Origin: Flavobacteriales bacterium
GTDB taxonomy: Bacteria > Bacteroidota > Bacteroidia > Flavobacteriales_G > Salibacteraceae
Direction of reading: 5' to 3'
Assembly: GCA_013204105.1 (NCBI GenBank)
Contig: JABMOM010000004.1
Coordinates: forward strand, 1-39,971
Length of the DNA: 39,971 bases
Part shown: positions 20,712 through 29,358 of the stretch, in pieces
Position numbering within the stretch: position 1 is the first letter of the stretch
Layout of the letters: every line of letters begins with the position of its first letter
Notes under the pieces: generated by a model
The model's input: only the letters and a program-made list of their open reading frames with translations
Database searches by the model: none
What the model was told of the DNA's origin: nothing
Position numbers and translations under genes: made by a program

Positions 20712-21993
20712 TTTTATCCGCGACCACGCACTGATCCATCCTGACGACAAGGTATTGGTAGCAGTAAGTGGCGGAAGAGATAGTATTGCTTTGGCCCATG
20801 CCCTTCACACGATCGGTATCAAGATCTCCATTGCCCACATGAATTATCGCTTGCGCGGGGAAGCTTCAGAGGATGATGCAAGTTTCGTCGAGGCATTTTC
20901 AAAAGAACTCGGCGTAGCCTACCATCAAAAAATCGCATGGGATTCGGCCCCTAAGACGAACATTCAAGAAGCGGCACGTCAAGCGCGTTACGAGCACTTC
21001 GAGCATTTATGTGTGAAGCACAGCTATGACAAGATTGCGACCGCACACCACTTCAGCGATAAAGTGGAGAGTCTGTTTATCAATCTGATTCGCGGCACTG
21101 GAATCCACGGCTTGCATGGTATTCCCGTTCAACGGGGCAACATCATTCGCCCCTTGCTTTGGGCAGACCGCAGTATCATCGACACTTACCTGAGTGAGCA
21201 TGGATTGCAATGGAGGGAAGATGAAAGCAATGCGAAAGACGCTTACTTGCGCAATCGTATCCGCCACCACCTTGTGCCTTTGCTCAACGAGTTAGACATC
21301 GAAGCTGTCCAAAAGCTGGGCGGAAGCATGGATCGTTTACAAGCAGATGCTGAAGCGATAGACGCCATGGCGACTAAGGCAGTCACCCTGGTAGGACCGC
21401 ACATAAGCATCGATCTGGAAAGCTTCCCGGCAGAGCATCGGGCAACCTGGTTGTATCACTGTCTGCGGCCTTTTGGCTTTAATCGGTCGCAATGCTCCGA
21501 CCTTGAACAGGCCAAACAATCTGGAAAAAAAGTGGAAGGATCTCAATACGTAGCCGTAACGCGAAAACGAGGCGTCGACCTTTTGGTCAAGGATCCAGAA
21601 GCCATGCCTGCCCTTAGGATCGAAGGTCCAGGTACTTTTCACCACCATGGCATCACGGTTGAACTGCGTCCCGCCGGCTCGCCAGACAACCTGACCTCTG
21701 GAGCGAATGTAAACGTGACCCTAGACGCTGCGCGATTGGCATTTCCGCTTACGCTGCGCAACGTGAATCGCACGGATCACTTTCAACCCCTTGGCTTGGA
21801 CTACGAAGTAGTCTTGATGGATTACTTACGGGAAAAAGGCGCCGGACCCGCTGAAATTGCCGAAACTTTCGTGCTCACCGAAGCGGATGGACGGATCGCC
21901 TGGGTTCCAGAGGTACAGATCGCGCAATGGTGCAAAATCGAAGCTTTTACTACTTCTATTCTTTCCTTATCTTTCCGACGCAATGGCGATTAA
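20692..21993 (+). CDS. tilS: tRNA(Ile)-lysidine synthase
   Basis: Modifies the CAU anticodon wobble C of tRNA-Ile2 to lysidine using ATP and lysine; essential in most bacteria. The PP-loop SGGRDS is at residues ~26-31 of the 433-residue product. The N-terminal HMNYRLRGEASEDD and ATAHHFSDKVESLFINLIRGTG blocks are typical, as is the C-terminal TilS-like domain. ATG 20692 is preferred; the TTG at 20638 would add 18 residues inside pabB. Translation is probably coupled to pabB. A CAT-anticodon tRNA lies at the far end of this window and could be a substrate if it is the Ile2 species. Confidence 0.95.
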   Translation: MRQQLLDFIRDHALIHPDDKVLVAVSGGRDSIALAHALHTIGIKISIAHMNYRLRGEASEDDASFVEAFSKELGVAYHQKIAWDSAPKTNIQEAARQARYEHFEHLCVKHSYDKIATAHHFSDKVESLFINLIRGTGIHGLHGIPVQRGNIIRPLLWADRSIIDTYLSEHGLQWREDESNAKDAYLRNRIRHHLVPLLNELDIEAVQKLGGSMDRLQADAEAIDAMATKAVTLVGPHISIDLESFPAEHRATWLYHCLRPFGFNRSQCSDLEQAKQSGKKVEGSQYVAVTRKRGVDLLVKDPEAMPALRIEGPGTFHHHGITVELRPAGSPDNLTSGANVNVTLDAARLAFPLTLRNVNRTDHFQPLGLDYEVVLMDYLREKGAGPAEIAETFVLTEADGRIAWVPEVQIAQWCKIEAFTTSILSLSFRRNGD

Positions 21994-22474
21994 CTACGAC
22001 TATCACGAACGACAATTCCTTGGCTTCAACCGTTTTGGCATCATTCGCCGAACGGTCATCGCACTCTTTTGTTTGATTTTTTATTACGCGTCTGAGACCG
22101 ATGACGAGATGAAGAATCTCTTCTTCTTGTTGGCCATTGTCATTCTGGCCTTGTCGCTTTTGTCGATGCTGATACAGCATCTCGAAACCCGATTGGATGG
22201 GTCAAAACTCACCTTGATTGGCCCCATGACCTTCAAAAAAGTCACCCTAGACCTGGAGGGATTAAAGTATGTTGAGGTGAAGCCATACTCCAGGCTCATG
22301 CTCAATCGTCCGATGTTCAACCTTCATAGAGATGGCACGATCCGCTTTTTTACGTATGGAAAATGGTGTTTGGAATTCGAAACGAAGGATGGAGAGAAGG
22401 TGCGCTTAGGCACGCAACGCCCGAATGGACTGAAAGAGATCCTATCCAAGTTCGTACAGGAGTCTGCCGACTAA
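21983..22474 (+). CDS. Small two-helix membrane protein downstream of tilS
   Basis: A 163-residue product starting at ATG 21983 (MAINYDYHERQF), overlapping the tilS stop by 11 nt; the longer reading from 21857 lies inside tilS. Two membrane helices are visible (about residues 20-37 and 45-65), followed by a soluble C-terminal part of short beta-like stretches (LDGSKLTLIGPMTFKKVTLD, RLMLNRPMFNLHRDG). The layout suggests a PH-like or bacterial Pleckstrin-fold tail after a membrane hairpin, but I do not recognise a family. It is the last gene of the cluster; no clear terminator follows. Confidence 0.65.
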   Translation: MAINYDYHERQFLGFNRFGIIRRTVIALFCLIFYYASETDDEMKNLFFLLAIVILALSLLSMLIQHLETRLDGSKLTLIGPMTFKKVTLDLEGLKYVEVKPYSRLMLNRPMFNLHRDGTIRFFTYGKWCLEFETKDGEKVRLGTQRPNGLKEILSKFVQESAD

Positions 22475-22530: not shown

Positions 22531-23259
22531 TCAAAAACTCAGCACCCCGTATAGAAATACTGCTAGGATAGCTTGAAATATATAGGAAGCAAATAACGTC
22601 CACTGCATGGGTACATCATCACCGTATTTTTCCATGATGATGTACGATATCAAAAGCGAAATTAAAATTCCAATCACCGAGAGTATTGCCATTGCTGCCA
22701 ACACAATTACTCCGGTTGAGCTCAGCGTGCTGGAGCCAAATAGGAATATAAAAAAGGCGATTACCGTCACCAACGCCAATATTCCCGACGCCACCGCCAA
22801 AAGTTTTGCGGTCATTGATAACGCCAGAGGCGTTTCTGCCTCCTCCTCCTCTTCGTCAGGCAGCAGCTCTTTCAACCCAATACGAGCATCCATTACAGCC
22901 GGCCCATCCACTTCTGGAGCGCGTGCATTTGTCTGCGTTTCCTGTTGCCTAGAAGGCACGGTTGGACTTGACCGTCTGAGAAGAGGAACTACCGTGATTT
23001 TATGCTGGCTTGGAAGCACTGCATTGATCCGCTTCTCAGATTGCACCTCTGAAGATTCTTTTTCATTCTCTTCAACCTGAACGAAATTTCCATTCTCTCG
23101 TTTCTTTCTTGACGGCACATCAACGAACCAACCACCTCGGTACTTTCTCTTTTGAATCAATTTCTCTGAAACCACCGAACTGCTTTGCTTGCAAGCAGGA
23201 AGGAGGACTACCGCGAGCAGCACCATGGAAATGAGAAGTGTAAGCTGTCGATTCATCAT
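22531..23259 (-). CDS. Predicted lipoprotein with IQKRKYRGGW motif and three C-terminal membrane helices
   Basis: A 242-residue protein. The N-terminus ends in a possible signal peptidase II lipobox, LPAC (Cys23; Pro at -2 is unusual). Directly after it comes IQKRKYRGGW at ~35-44, a motif I recall from many Bacteroidetes lipoproteins of unknown function. A low-complexity, charged linker (~50-140, with a DEEEEEAE run) leads to three hydrophobic helices (~150-170, 182-206, 220-240). Starts at 23262 (GTG), 23259 or 23256 (ATG) are possible; 23259 is chosen. It is the last of three minus-strand envelope genes, following the previous stop within 3 nt. Function unknown. Confidence 0.7.
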   Translation of the reverse strand: MMNRQLTLLISMVLLAVVLLPACKQSSSVVSEKLIQKRKYRGGWFVDVPSRKKRENGNFVQVEENEKESSEVQSEKRINAVLPSQHKITVVPLLRRSSPTVPSRQQETQTNARAPEVDGPAVMDARIGLKELLPDEEEEEAETPLALSMTAKLLAVASGILALVTVIAFFIFLFGSSTLSSTGVIVLAAMAILSVIGILISLLISYIIMEKYGDDVPMQWTLFASYIFQAILAVFLYGVLSF

Positions 23260-23262
23260 CAC

Positions 23263-24090
23263 CTATTGGGTAATGTTCACATTCTGAACGAATTGCATTC
23301 CCTGATCCAAGTGTATGGAAAAAGCCTCAAACTCCATTGTCATTTTCATCTCCATATTCGAAGCTTGGGTCGTGATGAATTCATTCGGGATATTGTAGAT
23401 CAATTCACCCGTGCCCAACCCTGAGGCTTTTGCTTTGAACTCTGATACATCGCTGTCCAAAGTAAACGATTGGACCAAATCAAATGTCGCTTGCTCCTCC
23501 GAAAGGGCAATAAGAGTATAATGACTTTTGGTGATCAATTGCATTGTAAAACCCGCTATGGGTATATCGAGCGGCATGATGTCCGTGAACGTATCTCCCA
23601 GCACGAGCTGGCGTTCAGGAAATTTCAATTGCCCAAACAAACCTTGCATGGTAACGAGCAATGCGTCTTCGTATTCTTCGCCGTTGCCCGTATCCGAAAG
23701 AGAGTCCAATCGAGGCATTCCTAAAAGCGTGGTTGATCCGTAGATACGCACTCCCTCTGGTAGCCGTATTCCTTGCGTACTGCCCTCTGAACGCAGTAGG
23801 TGAATCTCAAGTGGAAACTCCTTGTCATTGGCCATCTGGCCGGTTGTAACTTCCATGGCAACCAATGCGGTATCAGCGGTTTCCTGTTTCAATCCGACGC
23901 CAGAAGCTTCCATCATAGCAACAAAAGATGGATCACCTTGATAGCTAAGTCCGTTAGAAGAAATGCTTTTTTGCACCAGTTCATAGGTGCGTTCAGGTTG
24001 GAAATGATGATGGAAATTGACCTCTGATTGGGCTTGACCCCTAAAGGGAAGCGCAACGAAGACTGGGAAAAGCACTATAAAAAAGTACAT
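23263..24090 (-). CDS. Secreted/periplasmic protein of unknown function
   Basis: A 275-residue product starting at ATG 24090 (MYFFIVLFPVFVALPF), with a signal peptide ending near GQAQ. The reading from 24141 adds 17 residues in front of a good signal peptide and is not preferred. The mature part has no cysteines that I notice and alternates short hydrophobic strands (TYELVQKSISSNGLSY, LVLGDTFTDIMPLDIPI, HYTLIALSEEQATFDLVQSF, ASNMEMKMTMEFEAF), suggesting a beta-rich fold resembling the DUF6263-type lipoproteins of Bacteroidetes. I do not make a firm assignment. It lies between an outer-membrane barrel and the lipobox protein and is probably co-transcribed with both. Confidence 0.68.
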   Translation of the reverse strand: MYFFIVLFPVFVALPFRGQAQSEVNFHHHFQPERTYELVQKSISSNGLSYQGDPSFVAMMEASGVGLKQETADTALVAMEVTTGQMANDKEFPLEIHLLRSEGSTQGIRLPEGVRIYGSTTLLGMPRLDSLSDTGNGEEYEDALLVTMQGLFGQLKFPERQLVLGDTFTDIMPLDIPIAGFTMQLITKSHYTLIALSEEQATFDLVQSFTLDSDVSEFKAKASGLGTGELIYNIPNEFITTQASNMEMKMTMEFEAFSIHLDQGMQFVQNVNITQ

Positions 24091-24144
24091 CGAGCGGCCT
24101 CGATGCAGAGAGGGTATGTCTATGAATGTTCTCGGATACAAGGC

Positions 24145-24858
24145 TTAAAACGGCACGATGGACACACCGACTGAAAATGAATTTTGATTGTTCAAACTGT
24201 TGGAAGGCTCGAAGAAAGGGGTCAGGCTGTAGAATGCAGATACCATGATGGCCCCGTACCCAGCTCTTGCGGTAAGACCATAGCGCAGCTCGGTGACATT
24301 GGGGTAGTTATACGTCTTGATCTTAATGCCTTGATCGTCGATGATCTTCTCATGCACATTCACCAAGTAGCCCACCTTTCCTCCGACGGCAAATTTCCAG
24401 CGCAGGCCTTTATCGTTCTCTTTTCCTCTAAACCTCAATTCGAGGGGGACATCCACGTAATTGACCGAAATCTTTCCTTTGGCAAGGATTGTATCGCCCA
24501 CCACTTTGAATTCAGAATAATTCGTCTCTGCGGAATCAAAGCGATTCACGAGTGCATTTAGGTAGTAATTGTGAGACGCGAAACTGAATCCGATTGCTCC
24601 ACTGAAACTGCCATTATCCGTAAAGGGATGATCGTAAACAAGTCCCACATTCACCCCCCTACCATACCATTGTTGCTTCACTTCCGAAGGCAAATTCAAG
24701 AGGTAATCCAAAGTAAGGTCTACGAAAAGAAGATCTTGGTGCGGCTTCTTGGCCGAGGCGGCCTGATTCGTGTCGATATCGGCATCAGCTCCTTCTTGCG
24801 CATGGATCGATCCGCTTAGACAAAGAAGTAGCAGTAGCAAGGGAAGTTGTTTGATCAT
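24145..24858 (-). CDS. Outer-membrane beta-barrel protein (PorT-like/OMP_b-brl type)
   Basis: A 237-residue protein with a signal peptide (residues ~1-20, ending SIHAQ). The mature part is a run of alternating amphipathic strands such as FSGAIGFSFASHNYYLNALV, YVDVPLELRFRG, WKFAVGGKVGYLVNV, LRYGLTARAGYGAIMVSAFYSL and a C-terminal SFSVGVSIVPF ending in phenylalanine. The YVDVPLELRFR block is typical of the PorT-like/outer membrane beta-barrel family in Bacteroidetes. Substrate or partner unknown. It heads a three-gene minus-strand cluster with a -7 box 17 nt upstream. Confidence 0.82.
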   Translation of the reverse strand: MIKQLPLLLLLLCLSGSIHAQEGADADIDTNQAASAKKPHQDLLFVDLTLDYLLNLPSEVKQQWYGRGVNVGLVYDHPFTDNGSFSGAIGFSFASHNYYLNALVNRFDSAETNYSEFKVVGDTILAKGKISVNYVDVPLELRFRGKENDKGLRWKFAVGGKVGYLVNVHEKIIDDQGIKIKTYNYPNVTELRYGLTARAGYGAIMVSAFYSLTPFFEPSNSLNNQNSFSVGVSIVPF

Positions 24859-24875
24859 GCTGATTGAATTGGCGA

Positions 24876-24883
24876 CAAATGTA
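24876..24883 (-). promoter_or_regulatory. Bacteroidetes -7 promoter element (TACATTTG) for the envelope cluster
   Basis: Exact TAnnTTTG match on the minus strand 17 nt before the start at 24858. It is back-to-back with an identical TACATTTG box on the plus strand at 24920-24927. No TTG at the normal -33 distance. Confidence 0.55.
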
Positions 24884-24919
24884 CGCGTTGAAAATGGTAG
24901 TGGTCCGTGAATACAACGT

Positions 24920-24927
24920 TACATTTG
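24920..24927 (+). promoter_or_regulatory. Bacteroidetes -7 promoter element (TACATTTG) for the FG-GAP operon
   Basis: Exact TAnnTTTG match 19 nt before the ATG at 24947. The identical 8-mer faces the other way at 24876-24883, 36 nt away, making a divergent promoter pair. Confidence 0.55.
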
Positions 24928-24946
24928 CTATTAACGTCTTTGAACC

Positions 24947-27169
24947 ATGAAGCAGCTCTTGACCCTCGGATTATTGATCTTGGCCGTACTCTCGGGTAGG
25001 TCACAATTCAATCTTGGGTTTGACCATTACAGCGACATGAAAGTGGTGCACGAAAGCGACACCCTTCGCTTTCCATGGGCTGGGGGATTAAACAACCCAC
25101 AATTCTCATCCTTAGACGTAGATCTAGATGGGGCCAAGGACATCTATGCTTATGAAAGAGATGGAGAAGTGACACGCCTCTTCATCAACGACGGTTTCGG
25201 TGCGTTTGATGTGGACATGAACGGCTATAAAAAACTCCCGCCCGTAGGAGGGAATTTCGTGTTGATGCGGGATTACGATGGTGACGGAAAGCAAGACATT
25301 TTTGCGTCTGGGTACAACAACTACGGCATCGATATTTATCGCAATGTAAGCGACACCTCCTTGCTTTTTGAAATGGCTTCGGAGCGAACCAAGTACGCTC
25401 GACAAGGTGCCAGCTCGCTCTATTTTTATATTCCTGGGAACGACCTTCCTTCCATTGACGACATCGACGGTGATGGTGATTTGGATATTCTCTTCCAAGG
25501 ACAGCTCGAATTCACGCCATACGTTTTACTCTACATTGAAAACCGATCTCAAGAGCTTTTCAATCATAGCGATAGTTTAAAATTCAAACTAGCAAACCCT
25601 TGCTGGGGTAAGGTGCGAGAATACATTTCACAAACCGGATGGACGTTCTACGATTGCGACACAGGCTATGTCACTACCGGAAGGGGTGAACGCCATGGAG
25701 GAACAACCCTCACTACGCTGGATCTGAACGGTGACGGCCTGAAAGACGTCATCACCGGCGATTCCTACAATGAGCACCTGATCAGCTTGATAAATATTGG
25801 CGAAAACGTAGATGCTGTAATCGACCTTACTGCTTCCGATACGACCTTTCCTTCCTACAACACCCCAGCACAAGTGCCTACGCTCCCCGCTGCCTTCATT
25901 GAAGACGTTGACCTGGACGGGGTGAACGACATGCTGGTAGCCCCAAATCAACTCACGGCATTCGCTTCTTTCTACCTCGACACATCGATCAGTTCGCTGG
26001 TCGATTGGTACTACCACAACGCCGGCACCAACACCAACCCACAATTTGAACTGTCAAAAGAGGGCTTCTTCTCTGGAGAAATGATCGACGTGGGGGCGCG
26101 ATCATTTCCCGTCACGGTGGATTTGAACGGCGACGGCTTACTCGATTTAGTGGTCGGGAATGAGGGATACACGATCTATGGGGGCACCGCTGCAGCCTCT
26201 CTTACCTACTATAAGAACGTTGGAACAGCTGAAGAACCGGTCTTCCAATTGGAACAAAAAGACTTGGCCGGCATCACCCAGCTCGAACTAGGATTTGCAC
26301 ACCCGGCCTTTGCCGATCTTGATGACGACGGAGATTTCGACTTACTCGTAGGCGATGACCAAGGCCGCATGCACTATTATAAAAACAAAGGTGTTTCCTC
26401 GATCTACGACTTTCACCTGAACGAACCGATGTTTGCCAACATCGACGTTGACCTCAGCGCGCACCCTTATTTTTTCGACCTGAATCAGGACGACCTTGAA
26501 GACCTAATCATCGGCGATTATTACGGGCAATTCCATTATTACGAAAATGCTGGAACAGGCACTGAACACGACTTTTCACAGAATCCCACCATCGAGAAAA
26601 TGGGAGATGTTCAAACGTTTCACGCCTACGGTGGAGAGGCTACTCCCTACGTTACTAGAAAACTAGACAGTCTTGGAGCCAGCCTTTACATCATGATCGG
26701 CTCGGCCAAAGGCCCCATCTTGGTATACGGGCCCATTACGAGCATTTACGATGACCTTGAAGTAAGCGATTCTATCAACGTAGACGCAACTTTTACGGCC
26801 CCTTTCGGAGCGGATCTCTATGGGGATTTCAGGCATGAACTCCTCATCGGACAGCGAACAGGCGGTGTCATGGCTATGCGCCGCACCGCTGAGATTGGCG
26901 TTGGGACTCCTTCATTGAGGTCTTCACTGCCCTTTGAAGTCTACCCGAATCCTTCGAACGGGGAATTGTCCTTTTCGCTTCCAAAAAAATTCGACCGCCA
27001 CGCCACCCTCAACATTACAGACGTGAGCGGAACGCTCGTTTGGAACGAAAGCCTTCAGGTAGGAGATGGAATTATCTCTAGAGACTTGCACCACTTGAGT
27101 GATGGCGTATACCTGATTACCGTGCGCCAGGCAGATGAGGTGCGCCAAGCCAGATGGGTTAAACAATGA
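24947..27169 (+). CDS. FG-GAP/VCBS-repeat secreted protein with type A T9SS C-terminal domain (copy 1)
   Basis: A 740-residue protein with a signal peptide (residues ~1-20). At least eight calcium-binding-like D-x-D/N-x-D-G repeats run through the protein (for example DYDGDGKQDI, DIDGDGDLDI, DLNGDGLKDV, DLNGDGLLDL, DLDDDGDFDL), typical of FG-GAP/VCBS beta-propeller blades. The last ~75 residues contain YPNPSNGELSF and LSDGVYLITV, the type A T9SS sorting signal. Predicted to be exported across the outer membrane and released or attached to the cell surface. Ligand unknown. Its stop overlaps the start of its paralogue by 4 nt (ATGA). Confidence 0.9.
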   Translation: MKQLLTLGLLILAVLSGRSQFNLGFDHYSDMKVVHESDTLRFPWAGGLNNPQFSSLDVDLDGAKDIYAYERDGEVTRLFINDGFGAFDVDMNGYKKLPPVGGNFVLMRDYDGDGKQDIFASGYNNYGIDIYRNVSDTSLLFEMASERTKYARQGASSLYFYIPGNDLPSIDDIDGDGDLDILFQGQLEFTPYVLLYIENRSQELFNHSDSLKFKLANPCWGKVREYISQTGWTFYDCDTGYVTTGRGERHGGTTLTTLDLNGDGLKDVITGDSYNEHLISLINIGENVDAVIDLTASDTTFPSYNTPAQVPTLPAAFIEDVDLDGVNDMLVAPNQLTAFASFYLDTSISSLVDWYYHNAGTNTNPQFELSKEGFFSGEMIDVGARSFPVTVDLNGDGLLDLVVGNEGYTIYGGTAAASLTYYKNVGTAEEPVFQLEQKDLAGITQLELGFAHPAFADLDDDGDFDLLVGDDQGRMHYYKNKGVSSIYDFHLNEPMFANIDVDLSAHPYFFDLNQDDLEDLIIGDYYGQFHYYENAGTGTEHDFSQNPTIEKMGDVQTFHAYGGEATPYVTRKLDSLGASLYIMIGSAKGPILVYGPITSIYDDLEVSDSINVDATFTAPFGADLYGDFRHELLIGQRTGGVMAMRRTAEIGVGTPSLRSSLPFEVYPNPSNGELSFSLPKKFDRHATLNITDVSGTLVWNESLQVGDGIISRDLHHLSDGVYLITVRQADEVRQARWVKQ

Positions 27170-29358
27170 AGTCCGCACTGATCCTCTTTTCTGCTTTACT
27201 TTTTGCATCCCCTTTGTCAGCGCAATACAACCTTGGTTTTGTAAGCGAACCAGACGGGTTGGTATTCGAAGTAAACGGGCAGACCTTATCGCACGGGGCC
27301 ATTGGCGGATTTGACACCCCTCAATTATCTGAGATCGACCTCAATTTTGATGGAGTAATGGACCTCTTCGTGTTCGATCGAAGAAACGATGTCGTACGAA
27401 CCTACCTCTACCAATCATCCACTGGAAACTACACCTACGCTCCTGAATACGAAGCCAATTTTCCCGCCGACCTGAAGGAATTTGCGCTGCTTCGAGACTA
27501 CGATTGCGATGGGTTTCAAGATATTTTCACGTACTACCTTGCCGGCTTCCGGGTATACCGCAACAACGGAAGCACACCGCTAGGATTCACCAAGGTTACC
27601 GATAAAATCAGGTCCGATTATGGTTCCATCACCACCGGCGCCTTCGTACTAGCGGGCGATATTCCCGCCATCACCGATGTGGACAACGATGGCGATCTGG
27701 ACATCCTGGCTTTCGGCACCGTCAATTCTGAGAACACCATCGAGTTCCATCGAAACCTGTCTCAGGATTTATACAATTCGTGCGATAGCCTTGAATTCGA
27801 AGTCGTAACCCAGTGCTGGGGAAACGTGGAAGAGCCAGCGAATTCTGCAAGCCTCAGTCCGATTACCTGTAAAGGCATTGTGCCGCCGCCTCCATTTGAG
27901 GGCAGGCAAGGCATACACCCCGGTTCGAGCATCCTATTGTTTGATGCGGATAACGATGACGACAAAGACTTGGTAGTGGGAGACATCCAAACCGACAAGG
28001 TTGTATTTGCCGTGAACGTTGGAGACGAAAACGATGCGACCATTGACGTGAACCAGCAAACTACTGACTTCCCGAATAGCACAGATCCCGTGGGGATGCA
28101 ATACCTCGTTTCCGGGTTCCAAATCGATGTTGACCACGACGGTAAACAAGACCTGATCATGTCGGTCAACAACACCATAGACAGCTCTGTGAATGTGCGC
28201 CACATGTGGTATTACCGAAACCTTGGTGCGAATGCTCCTGTCTTTGAACTGCAAACGAAAGAGTTCTTACTCAACGACATGCTCGATCTTGGATCCAATG
28301 CATCCATTGAGGTGATGGATGTGAATGGAGACGGCGACCAAGACATCCTTCTTTCGAACGATTATCGCCGAGGACCGACTGGGTCAACCAACAGCCGCAT
28401 CTATTATTTTGAGCGTCAAGCCAGTGGCACCTACCTTCTCGTTGATGAAGACTTCGCCAATATTTCAACGTACGGGTTACAAGCAGTGACCTTAGCGCTT
28501 GGCGATCTAGATGGCGATGGAGACCAAGATCTGTTATTGGGCGATAGCGAAGGTCATCTGCATTATTTTGAAAACACCCCATCTGGTGGCCTCGCCTCCC
28601 CGTCTCTGTCGGAACCGATTTACAAGGGCATCACCAACATCGGATCCAATGCATCCCCCGAAATCGCTGATGTAAACGGCGATGGATTGTTAGACCTCCT
28701 AGTAGGAGAGCGCGTAGGTACAATCCGCTATTTCGAGAACCTCGGAACCGTCACTGAAGCAGCTTTCGCCTCAACGGCCACTATCCCGAACTTCGGAGGA
28801 ATAGATGTCAGCGTGGATTGTTGTGTCGGGCACGCACAGCCCCGATGGATCAATGACCCTGCATTGGCAAACGGTAAACACCTCATGGTAGGCAGCGACG
28901 AAAAAAAGCTGCTTTTCTATGCCGTTCCCAATGACCTCAACGCTCCCTTTACCTTGGTTGATTCTGTGGTAGTGAATGCGGGACGGCTCTCTGCCAAGCT
29001 AAGCGATCTGGATGGGAATGGTGTGTTTGAATTGATCATCGGGACGGCAGAAGGTGGCGCCAAATACTTGACAAGAGAAGAGAACGTAGTGATCGGTATA
29101 TCTAGTCCGGTAGATCAAAGCTCGTCGTTGAAGCTCTATCCTAACCCGGCTGACCACACATTGCATTGCATCACAGAAAGGCCTTTAAACGGCACCTTAC
29201 GCATCCTCGGCATGGATGGCCGCATACATCTCGAAAAGGCTACGACGCCAGGTATTAAGCAAGTCCTTGAAGTGGACAATCTGAAGGAAGGCTTGTACAT
29301 CTTGACAATTGAAACAGAAACGGGTTCCATCCACCGAAGCTTTACTATCTTGCGATAG
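27166..29358 (+). CDS. FG-GAP/VCBS-repeat secreted protein with type A T9SS C-terminal domain (copy 2)
   Basis: A 730-residue paralogue of the preceding gene with the same layout: signal peptide (to about residue 19, PLSAQ), QYNLGFxS start shared with the neighbour (FNLGFDH), and many Ca-binding-like repeats (DYDCDGFQDI, DVDNDGDLDI, DADNDDDKDL, DLDGDGDQDL, DVNGDGLLDL, DLDGNGVFEL). A near-duplicated segment, LGSNAS/IGSNAS plus DVNGDG, occurs twice (28287 and 28638). The type A CTD has YPNPADHTLH and LKEGLYILTI. The shared NLGF start, stop/start overlap and similar size point to tandem duplication. The LapA-like gene starts directly after its stop. Confidence 0.9.
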   Translation: MKSALILFSALLFASPLSAQYNLGFVSEPDGLVFEVNGQTLSHGAIGGFDTPQLSEIDLNFDGVMDLFVFDRRNDVVRTYLYQSSTGNYTYAPEYEANFPADLKEFALLRDYDCDGFQDIFTYYLAGFRVYRNNGSTPLGFTKVTDKIRSDYGSITTGAFVLAGDIPAITDVDNDGDLDILAFGTVNSENTIEFHRNLSQDLYNSCDSLEFEVVTQCWGNVEEPANSASLSPITCKGIVPPPPFEGRQGIHPGSSILLFDADNDDDKDLVVGDIQTDKVVFAVNVGDENDATIDVNQQTTDFPNSTDPVGMQYLVSGFQIDVDHDGKQDLIMSVNNTIDSSVNVRHMWYYRNLGANAPVFELQTKEFLLNDMLDLGSNASIEVMDVNGDGDQDILLSNDYRRGPTGSTNSRIYYFERQASGTYLLVDEDFANISTYGLQAVTLALGDLDGDGDQDLLLGDSEGHLHYFENTPSGGLASPSLSEPIYKGITNIGSNASPEIADVNGDGLLDLLVGERVGTIRYFENLGTVTEAAFASTATIPNFGGIDVSVDCCVGHAQPRWINDPALANGKHLMVGSDEKKLLFYAVPNDLNAPFTLVDSVVVNAGRLSAKLSDLDGNGVFELIIGTAEGGAKYLTREENVVIGISSPVDQSSSLKLYPNPADHTLHCITERPLNGTLRILGMDGRIHLEKATTPGIKQVLEVDNLKEGLYILTIETETGSIHRSFTILR

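Follow-up and report, generated by a model that had tools for sequence, protein, structure and literature searches.

A protein that carries a lipid-anchoring signal at its N-terminus and several transmembrane helices at its other end raises the question of which envelope layers its two ends occupy. Such a protein is predicted from the last of three consecutive genes in a 39,971-nucleotide stretch of a Flavobacteriales genome (assembly GCA_013204105.1, contig JABMOM010000004.1; hereafter the window), where three open reading frames (ORFs), all on the minus strand, lie between positions 22531 and 24858, the place given in a preliminary description of this DNA. That description suggested that their products, i.e. 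an outer-membrane barrel, a secreted β-rich protein and the lipoprotein, may be parts of one envelope-spanning unit. Our comparisons give a different picture, in which the protein architecture is general whereas the three-gene cluster is local: the architecture is real and unusual, and it is the unit that had been misread. The third gene belongs to a widespread family of Bacteroidia proteins composed of a lipobox, a KRxYxxG motif, a linker of approximately 100 residues and a small multi-helix membrane module. This family architecture, together with the local nature of the trio and a possible role of the protein as a tether, is the overall explanation that we favour, with a probability of roughly 0.4.

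A shared N-terminus in Bacteroidia membrane proteins

The lipobox, the IQKRKYRGGW motif, the acidic linker and the three C-terminal helices previously ascribed to the window protein can all be seen in its sequence or in its AlphaFold model, and the unusual combination of a lipobox with three helices recurs throughout a large family. The protein has everything that defines this family, i.e. a lipobox Cys, KR(K/H)(Y/H)xxG at +14, a linker of approximately 100 residues and a C-terminal membrane module; lipidation of the Cys and cleavage of the signal as a signal peptidase II (SPase II) substrate are predicted from the sequence pattern alone. Its acidic patch consists of five Glu (residues 137-141; 22854-22840). 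In the model, which was built with 38 sequences and has a mean predicted local distance difference test score (pLDDT) of 63.6, helices at residues 147-176, 182-216 and 219-242 reach moderate confidence (ten-residue mean pLDDT 65-82), the linker is of low confidence, and a short two-strand element (residues 35-36 and 46-47) surrounds the motif with modest confidence. For the secreted protein, the model is unusable (pLDDT 34). Against G009, the nearest relative, DNA identity is 54% in the linker (22840-23099), 82% in the signal and motif (23100-23250) and 72% in the membrane part (22531-22839).

How widespread is this N-terminus? A profile built from 20 members (A1) found matches in 116 of 295 genomes of the class at E up to 0.01, some of them to signal peptides only, and by a hand count in which not every match was checked, 66 of the 295 had a match with E up to 0.001 that reached model position 41 or beyond. 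Scanning named genome contigs gave 53 loci, mostly in Flavobacteriales metagenome-assembled genomes and one in a cultured strain, Crocinitomix algicola 0182 (L110). Phylum-wide, a full-length profile (A4) matched in 10 of 296 genomes, the window's own included; several of these matches were only C-terminal or contained internal stops, so this search is uninformative about spread beyond the class. The window genome itself encodes two further members on other contigs, and in one locus of G005 (L009) three members stand in tandem.

In total, 91 non-redundant members were collected, of which 85 remained after dropping six that were cut short or repeated; an alignment set of 83 excludes L059 and L111 as well. 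Across this alignment, the K, R and G of the motif are invariant and the Cys is present in at least 90%. The distance from Cys to KR is 14 in 71 of the 85 members, 12 in seven, 13 in two and 10 in two; among the remaining three, L100 and L118 owe their aberrant value to an earlier spurious pattern site (the true spacing being 14), and L077 truly has no Cys. When the 83 members were scanned, neither Pfam nor NCBIfam offered a model of the N-terminus that they share, and no NCBIfam model was matched by more than two of them. The family thus seems to be unnamed in both databases, and no description of it was seen among the papers listed by searches of open-licence PMC.

Linker length, membrane modules and a possible tether

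What might such an architecture be good for? The most suggestive fact is the length of the linker, here taken as the distance between the motif and the hydrophobic segment that comes first after it (hydropathy window 19, threshold 1.6). It ranges from 91 to 197 residues with quartiles of 101, 108 and 116, and lies within 91-123 in 76 of 84 members (one near-duplicate pair counted), whereas the length of the tail ranges from 29 to 191. All eight longer linkers, those of L065, L079, L080, L108, L115 and L116 among them, contain an extra domain of approximately 50 residues, which was recognized by pattern in five and by eye in three. This unnamed Cys-bearing domain has the form CDxIxxxxGxxxxAKV...IxYxxCDN. 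A nearly constant length over diverged sequence and in front of different modules suggests that reach rather than sequence may be under selection.

The modules behind the linker do indeed differ. A hydrophobic C-terminal segment follows the motif in 81 of 82 members, all sampled by their N-terminus only, and in the one remaining case (L109) such a segment lies beyond an in-frame stop. At E up to 0.001, the C-terminal module is Pmp3/YqaE (PF01679) in 13 of the 83 members, DUF4190 (PF13828) in 12 and TM2 (PF05154) in six, while at least 52, the window protein among them, match none of the three. Even at E up to 1, Pfam has no match for the window protein to Pmp3, TM2 or DUF4190; its score against DUF2207_C (18.1 bits) stays below the gathering cut-off of 33, and its genome has no Pmp3, TM2 or DUF2752 match. 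What distinguishes the family from these known modules is the common lipobox-KRxYxxG N-terminus added via a linker of approximately 100 residues.

Approaching the family from its C-terminal end gives a similar result. A Pmp3 search of 149 genomes provided 30 loci, of which 20 could be parsed by pattern and ten were dropped. A KRxY-type motif (loose pattern) is present in 10 of 12 long Pmp3 proteins, with the following G in eight of these ten, and the PP of the first helix comes 110-128 residues after it; the short Pmp3 proteins (50-124 residues) have neither the motif nor the rest of the family N-terminus in any of the eight cases parsed. For TM2, the corresponding search of 149 genomes gave 30 loci, nine with long frames, six of which were recovered: all four proteins with a C-terminal TM2 carry both lipobox and KRxYxxG, and the two with an N-terminal TM2 carry neither. 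With a stricter pattern, the lipobox-KRxY N-terminus was found in only three of the 30 TM2 loci; this pattern missed L244, where the motif follows a few residues after the Cys, so counts obtained with the strict pattern may be undercounts.

As a mechanism, we propose that the C-terminal module would sit in the inner membrane, and that the lipidated basic N-terminus with its KRxYxxG would dock, at a fixed reach of approximately 100 residues, on peptidoglycan, the outer membrane or some partner in the periplasm. This would make the protein a flexible tether, or a sensor of envelope spacing, whose inner-membrane ends can be exchanged, a possibility to which we hold tentatively. A stronger formulation, which as a whole seems unlikely, would be that the family constitutes an undescribed class of envelope tethers of fixed reach in Bacteroidia, in which a lipidated KRxYxxG docking peptide, a disordered linker of mostly 91-123 residues and interchangeable modules (Pmp3, TM2, DUF4190 or orphan) bridge the inner membrane to the outer membrane or peptidoglycan and report or set the distance between them. 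If true, one short motif would explain the shared lipoprotein N-terminus of many Bacteroidia proteins listed as ‘hypothetical’, Pmp3, TM2 or DUF4190, and linker length, Cys and KRxY would offer a genetic handle on the coupling of the inner membrane to the outer layers. A further question would then be how Lol handles a lipoprotein that has transmembrane helices as a second anchor.

Known proteins provide partial parallels. TonB-like proteins combine an inner-membrane end with a long flexible periplasmic linker of a similar order of length; the window lipoprotein differs in that no TonB domain was found in it and in its reversed orientation, with the conserved end at the N-terminus. CyoA and YiaM of E. 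coli, which are not known to have a KRxYxxG motif or a swappable module (no sequence comparison was made), offer another parallel. According to the available part of the source, both are lipoproteins with transmembrane helices (PMC7139219), i.e. they share with the family a lipid anchor and membrane-spanning segments in one chain. Another comparison concerns the surface-export signal LES, given in the accessible text of PMC5080379 as K-(D/E)2 or Q-A-(D/E)2 close after the Cys. None of the 83 members, the window protein included, has a LES-like signal as so defined, extended here by an S/T-D-D form, and none has Asp directly after the Cys, which argues against surface export but does not establish sorting to the outer membrane.

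Several points weigh against the tether and the family picture behind it. Lipidation and localization are predicted, and any partner is putative; the AlphaFold model of the lipoprotein is weak, and a fold search with it found nothing below E 0.84. Members are not independent, many coming from one genus, and the constancy of linker length could partly reflect shared descent, since random pairs of linkers score 13.9 versus -5.4 for shuffled ones (s.d. 14.7), i.e. slightly more than one standard deviation above. The spacing of 14 is partly a sampling effect, because members with this value were used to build the search profile, which so favours it; shorter spacings occur in sets chosen by their C-terminus, and as the motif comes within a few residues of the Cys in several of these proteins, 14 is to be seen as a feature of a subfamily. 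In two of the 12 long Pmp3 proteins no motif was found by pattern, one of them (L155) having a degenerate ARKY by eye. Moreover, L077 and L168, the latter from the Pmp3 set, have the KRxYxxG motif behind a signal that is type-I-like, with no Cys in a suitable position; the motif can therefore be kept without lipid, which is not always needed. Finally, the usual release by Lol would be impossible for a lipoprotein whose helices hold it in the inner membrane, and both of its ends may therefore remain in that membrane.

This last point leads to an alternative that we consider a serious if somewhat doubtful possibility, i.e. that the family consists of lipid-anchored inner-membrane proteins of the Pmp3, TM2 or DUF4190 sort, which tune the membrane under stress, with a motif that binds anionic lipid head groups or a nearby periplasmic partner and a linker whose length is incidental. 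The nature of the modules in many members is consistent with this, as is the median net charge of +5 over the motif and the next 18 residues. Further support comes from the window genome's C26 member and related members, which have a membrane protein with four helices next to them (PF04020 in the single neighbour scanned), and from CyoA, a transmembrane lipoprotein that stays in the inner membrane according to the available part of PMC7139219. Yet this alternative leaves unexplained why linkers of 91-123 residues precede different modules and why the motif is sequence-specific rather than merely basic. An improbable further alternative is that the N-terminus is an uncleaved helix and the Cys no lipidation site, which would make the window protein an ordinary four-helix membrane protein. 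Two family members without the Cys fit such a protein, but the near-constant Cys of the 83 aligned members and the S, G or A that directly precedes it in all 71 members whose spacing is 14 do not.

The three genes form a local arrangement

The proposal of a dedicated envelope-spanning unit of barrel, secreted protein and lipoprotein predicts that the three genes travel together, and the preliminary description itself named rare co-occurrence as evidence against it. Among 60 related genomes, the window genome included, they rarely do: the barrel has a match in 53, the lipoprotein in 17 and the secreted protein in just two, i.e. the window genome and G009. A close full-length relative of the lipoprotein (60% identity) is found only in G009; other matches cover most of the length at 22-29% identity in some genomes (e.g. 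G001, G005 and G006), and the rest are mainly N-terminal. As a conserved unit, the trio was therefore rejected.

Which genes, then, are the lasting partners of the barrel? Its surroundings were inspected in 18 of the 53 genomes with a match. In 15 of these 18 loci, a relative of the FG-GAP genes at 24947-29358 is divergent from the barrel; L050 has a marginal match only, and L051 and L052 have none on that side. In the window, these are two consecutive proteins, the first with FG-GAP repeats and a type IX secretion system (T9SS) sorting tail by Pfam; the second resembles the first by look. The downstream side of the barrel is variable. In G001 and G010, a small gene related to the one at 21857-22474 comes directly next, and elsewhere there are choice-of-anchor I/T9SS proteins, an AAA ATPase or other genes. 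Since the slot is otherwise variable and the secreted-lipoprotein pair occurs beside the barrel only in G009 among the 18 loci, we regard the pair as a lineage-specific tenant. The trio thus is a local arrangement: the barrel is conserved and has the divergent FG-GAP genes as its lasting partners, and the head-to-tail pair fills the variable slot downstream of it.

In favour of a single unit, it can be said that the order and tight spacing of the three genes are preserved in G009, and that the last two abut with no gap in both genomes. Against it stand the discrepancy between 53 and two genomes, a hairpin between the barrel and the secreted gene, and the situation in G085, G123 and G268, where distant homologues of the secreted protein are located on other contigs than the matches to the lipoprotein family. 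The idea of one dedicated unit is thus very improbable.

For the secreted protein itself, neither Pfam nor NCBIfam gave a match up to E 1. A two-sequence profile found homologues over most of its length in three of 247 class genomes besides the window's, and these (G085, G123 and G268) all belong to one genus. With a seven-sequence profile, weak matches to the C-terminal half appeared in G117, G122, G233 and G262, which represent other genera (E 3.4e-8 to 5.9e-4), giving a total of eight of 295 genomes, the window's own included. Two of the seven aligned homologues match DUF6263 (PF19777) at E up to 1 (best 7.4e-5), unlike the window protein. The nearest distant homologues (L185-L189) come from a single distant genus, which suggests lateral transfer, and several have a lipobox-like start. 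As the weakest step of our proposal, this DUF6263-like neighbour may be a lineage-specific partner of the tether in this species. PDB sequence searches with all three proteins of the locus gave nothing convincing.

Neighbouring genes and layout of the locus

Members of the lipoprotein family recurrently adjoin DUF2752, Lnb, PF04020, FKBP and GDPD genes, as judged from one to three scanned representatives per type. A cluster of DUF2752-like neighbours comprises ten loci, some representing the same contig twice, with three confirmed by Pfam; in L101 and L105, two family members flank the DUF2752-like gene. As a dedicated partner, DUF2752 was rejected, with a strict lipobox-KRxY ORF in none of the 30 best-scoring DUF2752 loci. 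Many DUF2752 genes are instead located near TM2 or Pmp3 genes (by eye, in the search tables), and the link therefore seems to follow the module and not the N-terminus.

Lnb, a lipoprotein N-acyltransferase according to the available parts of PMC12345273 and PMC13103446, is present in 24 of the 60 relatives. In seven of 11 Lnb genomes of the window's genus, a count of 11 that includes the window genome, a family member lies directly downstream of lnb, and in one of these seven (G011) the member has an internal stop. In L138, L140, L142, L144, L146, L147 and L150, the genes appear to run rfbC-lnb-member-rfbD, where rfbD was identified by Pfam in one case and rfbC by eye. This adjacency could suggest a tie of the family to Lnb-dependent lipoprotein maturation, as helper or dedicated substrate, which is hardly credible, however, given that the window genome, G008, G009 and G010 do not show it and that members occur where no Lnb was found, i.e. 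in G003 (only 82% complete), G012 and G052.

The features of the locus are listed in table 1.

Table 1. Features of the three-gene locus and the adjoining intergenic region (positions in the window).
Feature	Position	Strand	Basis
Outer-membrane β-barrel OMP_b-brl_2 with signal peptide	24145..24858	-	PF13568; matches in 53/60 genomes; synteny, 18 loci
Secreted β-rich protein, signal peptide ending between GQA and QS, remote DUF6263-like	23263..24090	-	In window genome and G009 only, among 60
Lipobox-KRKYxxG-linker-3TM protein, 243 residues	22531..23262	-	ORF, family alignment, AlphaFold model
Lipobox LPAC, Cys24 as predicted lipidated residue	23191..23202	-	Sequence; Cys in at least 90% of 83-member alignment
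IQKRKYRGGW motif, residues 36-45	23128..23157	-	K38, R39 and G44 invariant in 83-member alignment
Fast-evolving linker, approximately 100 residues, ending in acidic patch	22825..23127	-	pLDDT below 50 over most
Three-helix membrane module, residues 147-242	22537..22824	-	No family match above cut-off
Divergent intergenic region, 88 bp, TACATTTG on both strands	24859..24946	.	97.7% identical to G009

The barrel matches its Pfam model with E 4.2e-14 and 53.4 bits (cut-off 27). For the secreted protein, the frame stays open back to a TTG at 24141, and the ATG at 24090, which gives the better signal peptide, is probably its start. That one promoter drives all three genes, as the preliminary description had it, is unproven. 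The intergenic region upstream of the barrel is common to it and the opposite-strand FG-GAP gene, and its TACATTTG is close to the Bacteroidota promoter element TAnnTTTG. A terminator-like hairpin at 24107-24086 (-12.8 kcal/mol) spans the gap between the barrel and secreted genes as well as the ATG of the latter, and none was seen in the corresponding gap of G009. In the region, neither terminator-like sites (four found versus 3.4 expected from shuffles) nor promoter-like sigma-70 sites (two versus 4.4) are commoner than expected. Compared with G009, DNA differences at codon positions 1, 2 and 3 amount to 0.059, 0.050 and 0.315 in the barrel gene, 0.153, 0.077 and 0.405 in the secreted gene and 0.299, 0.187 and 0.444 in the lipoprotein gene; because they concentrate at position 3, all three are genuine coding genes.

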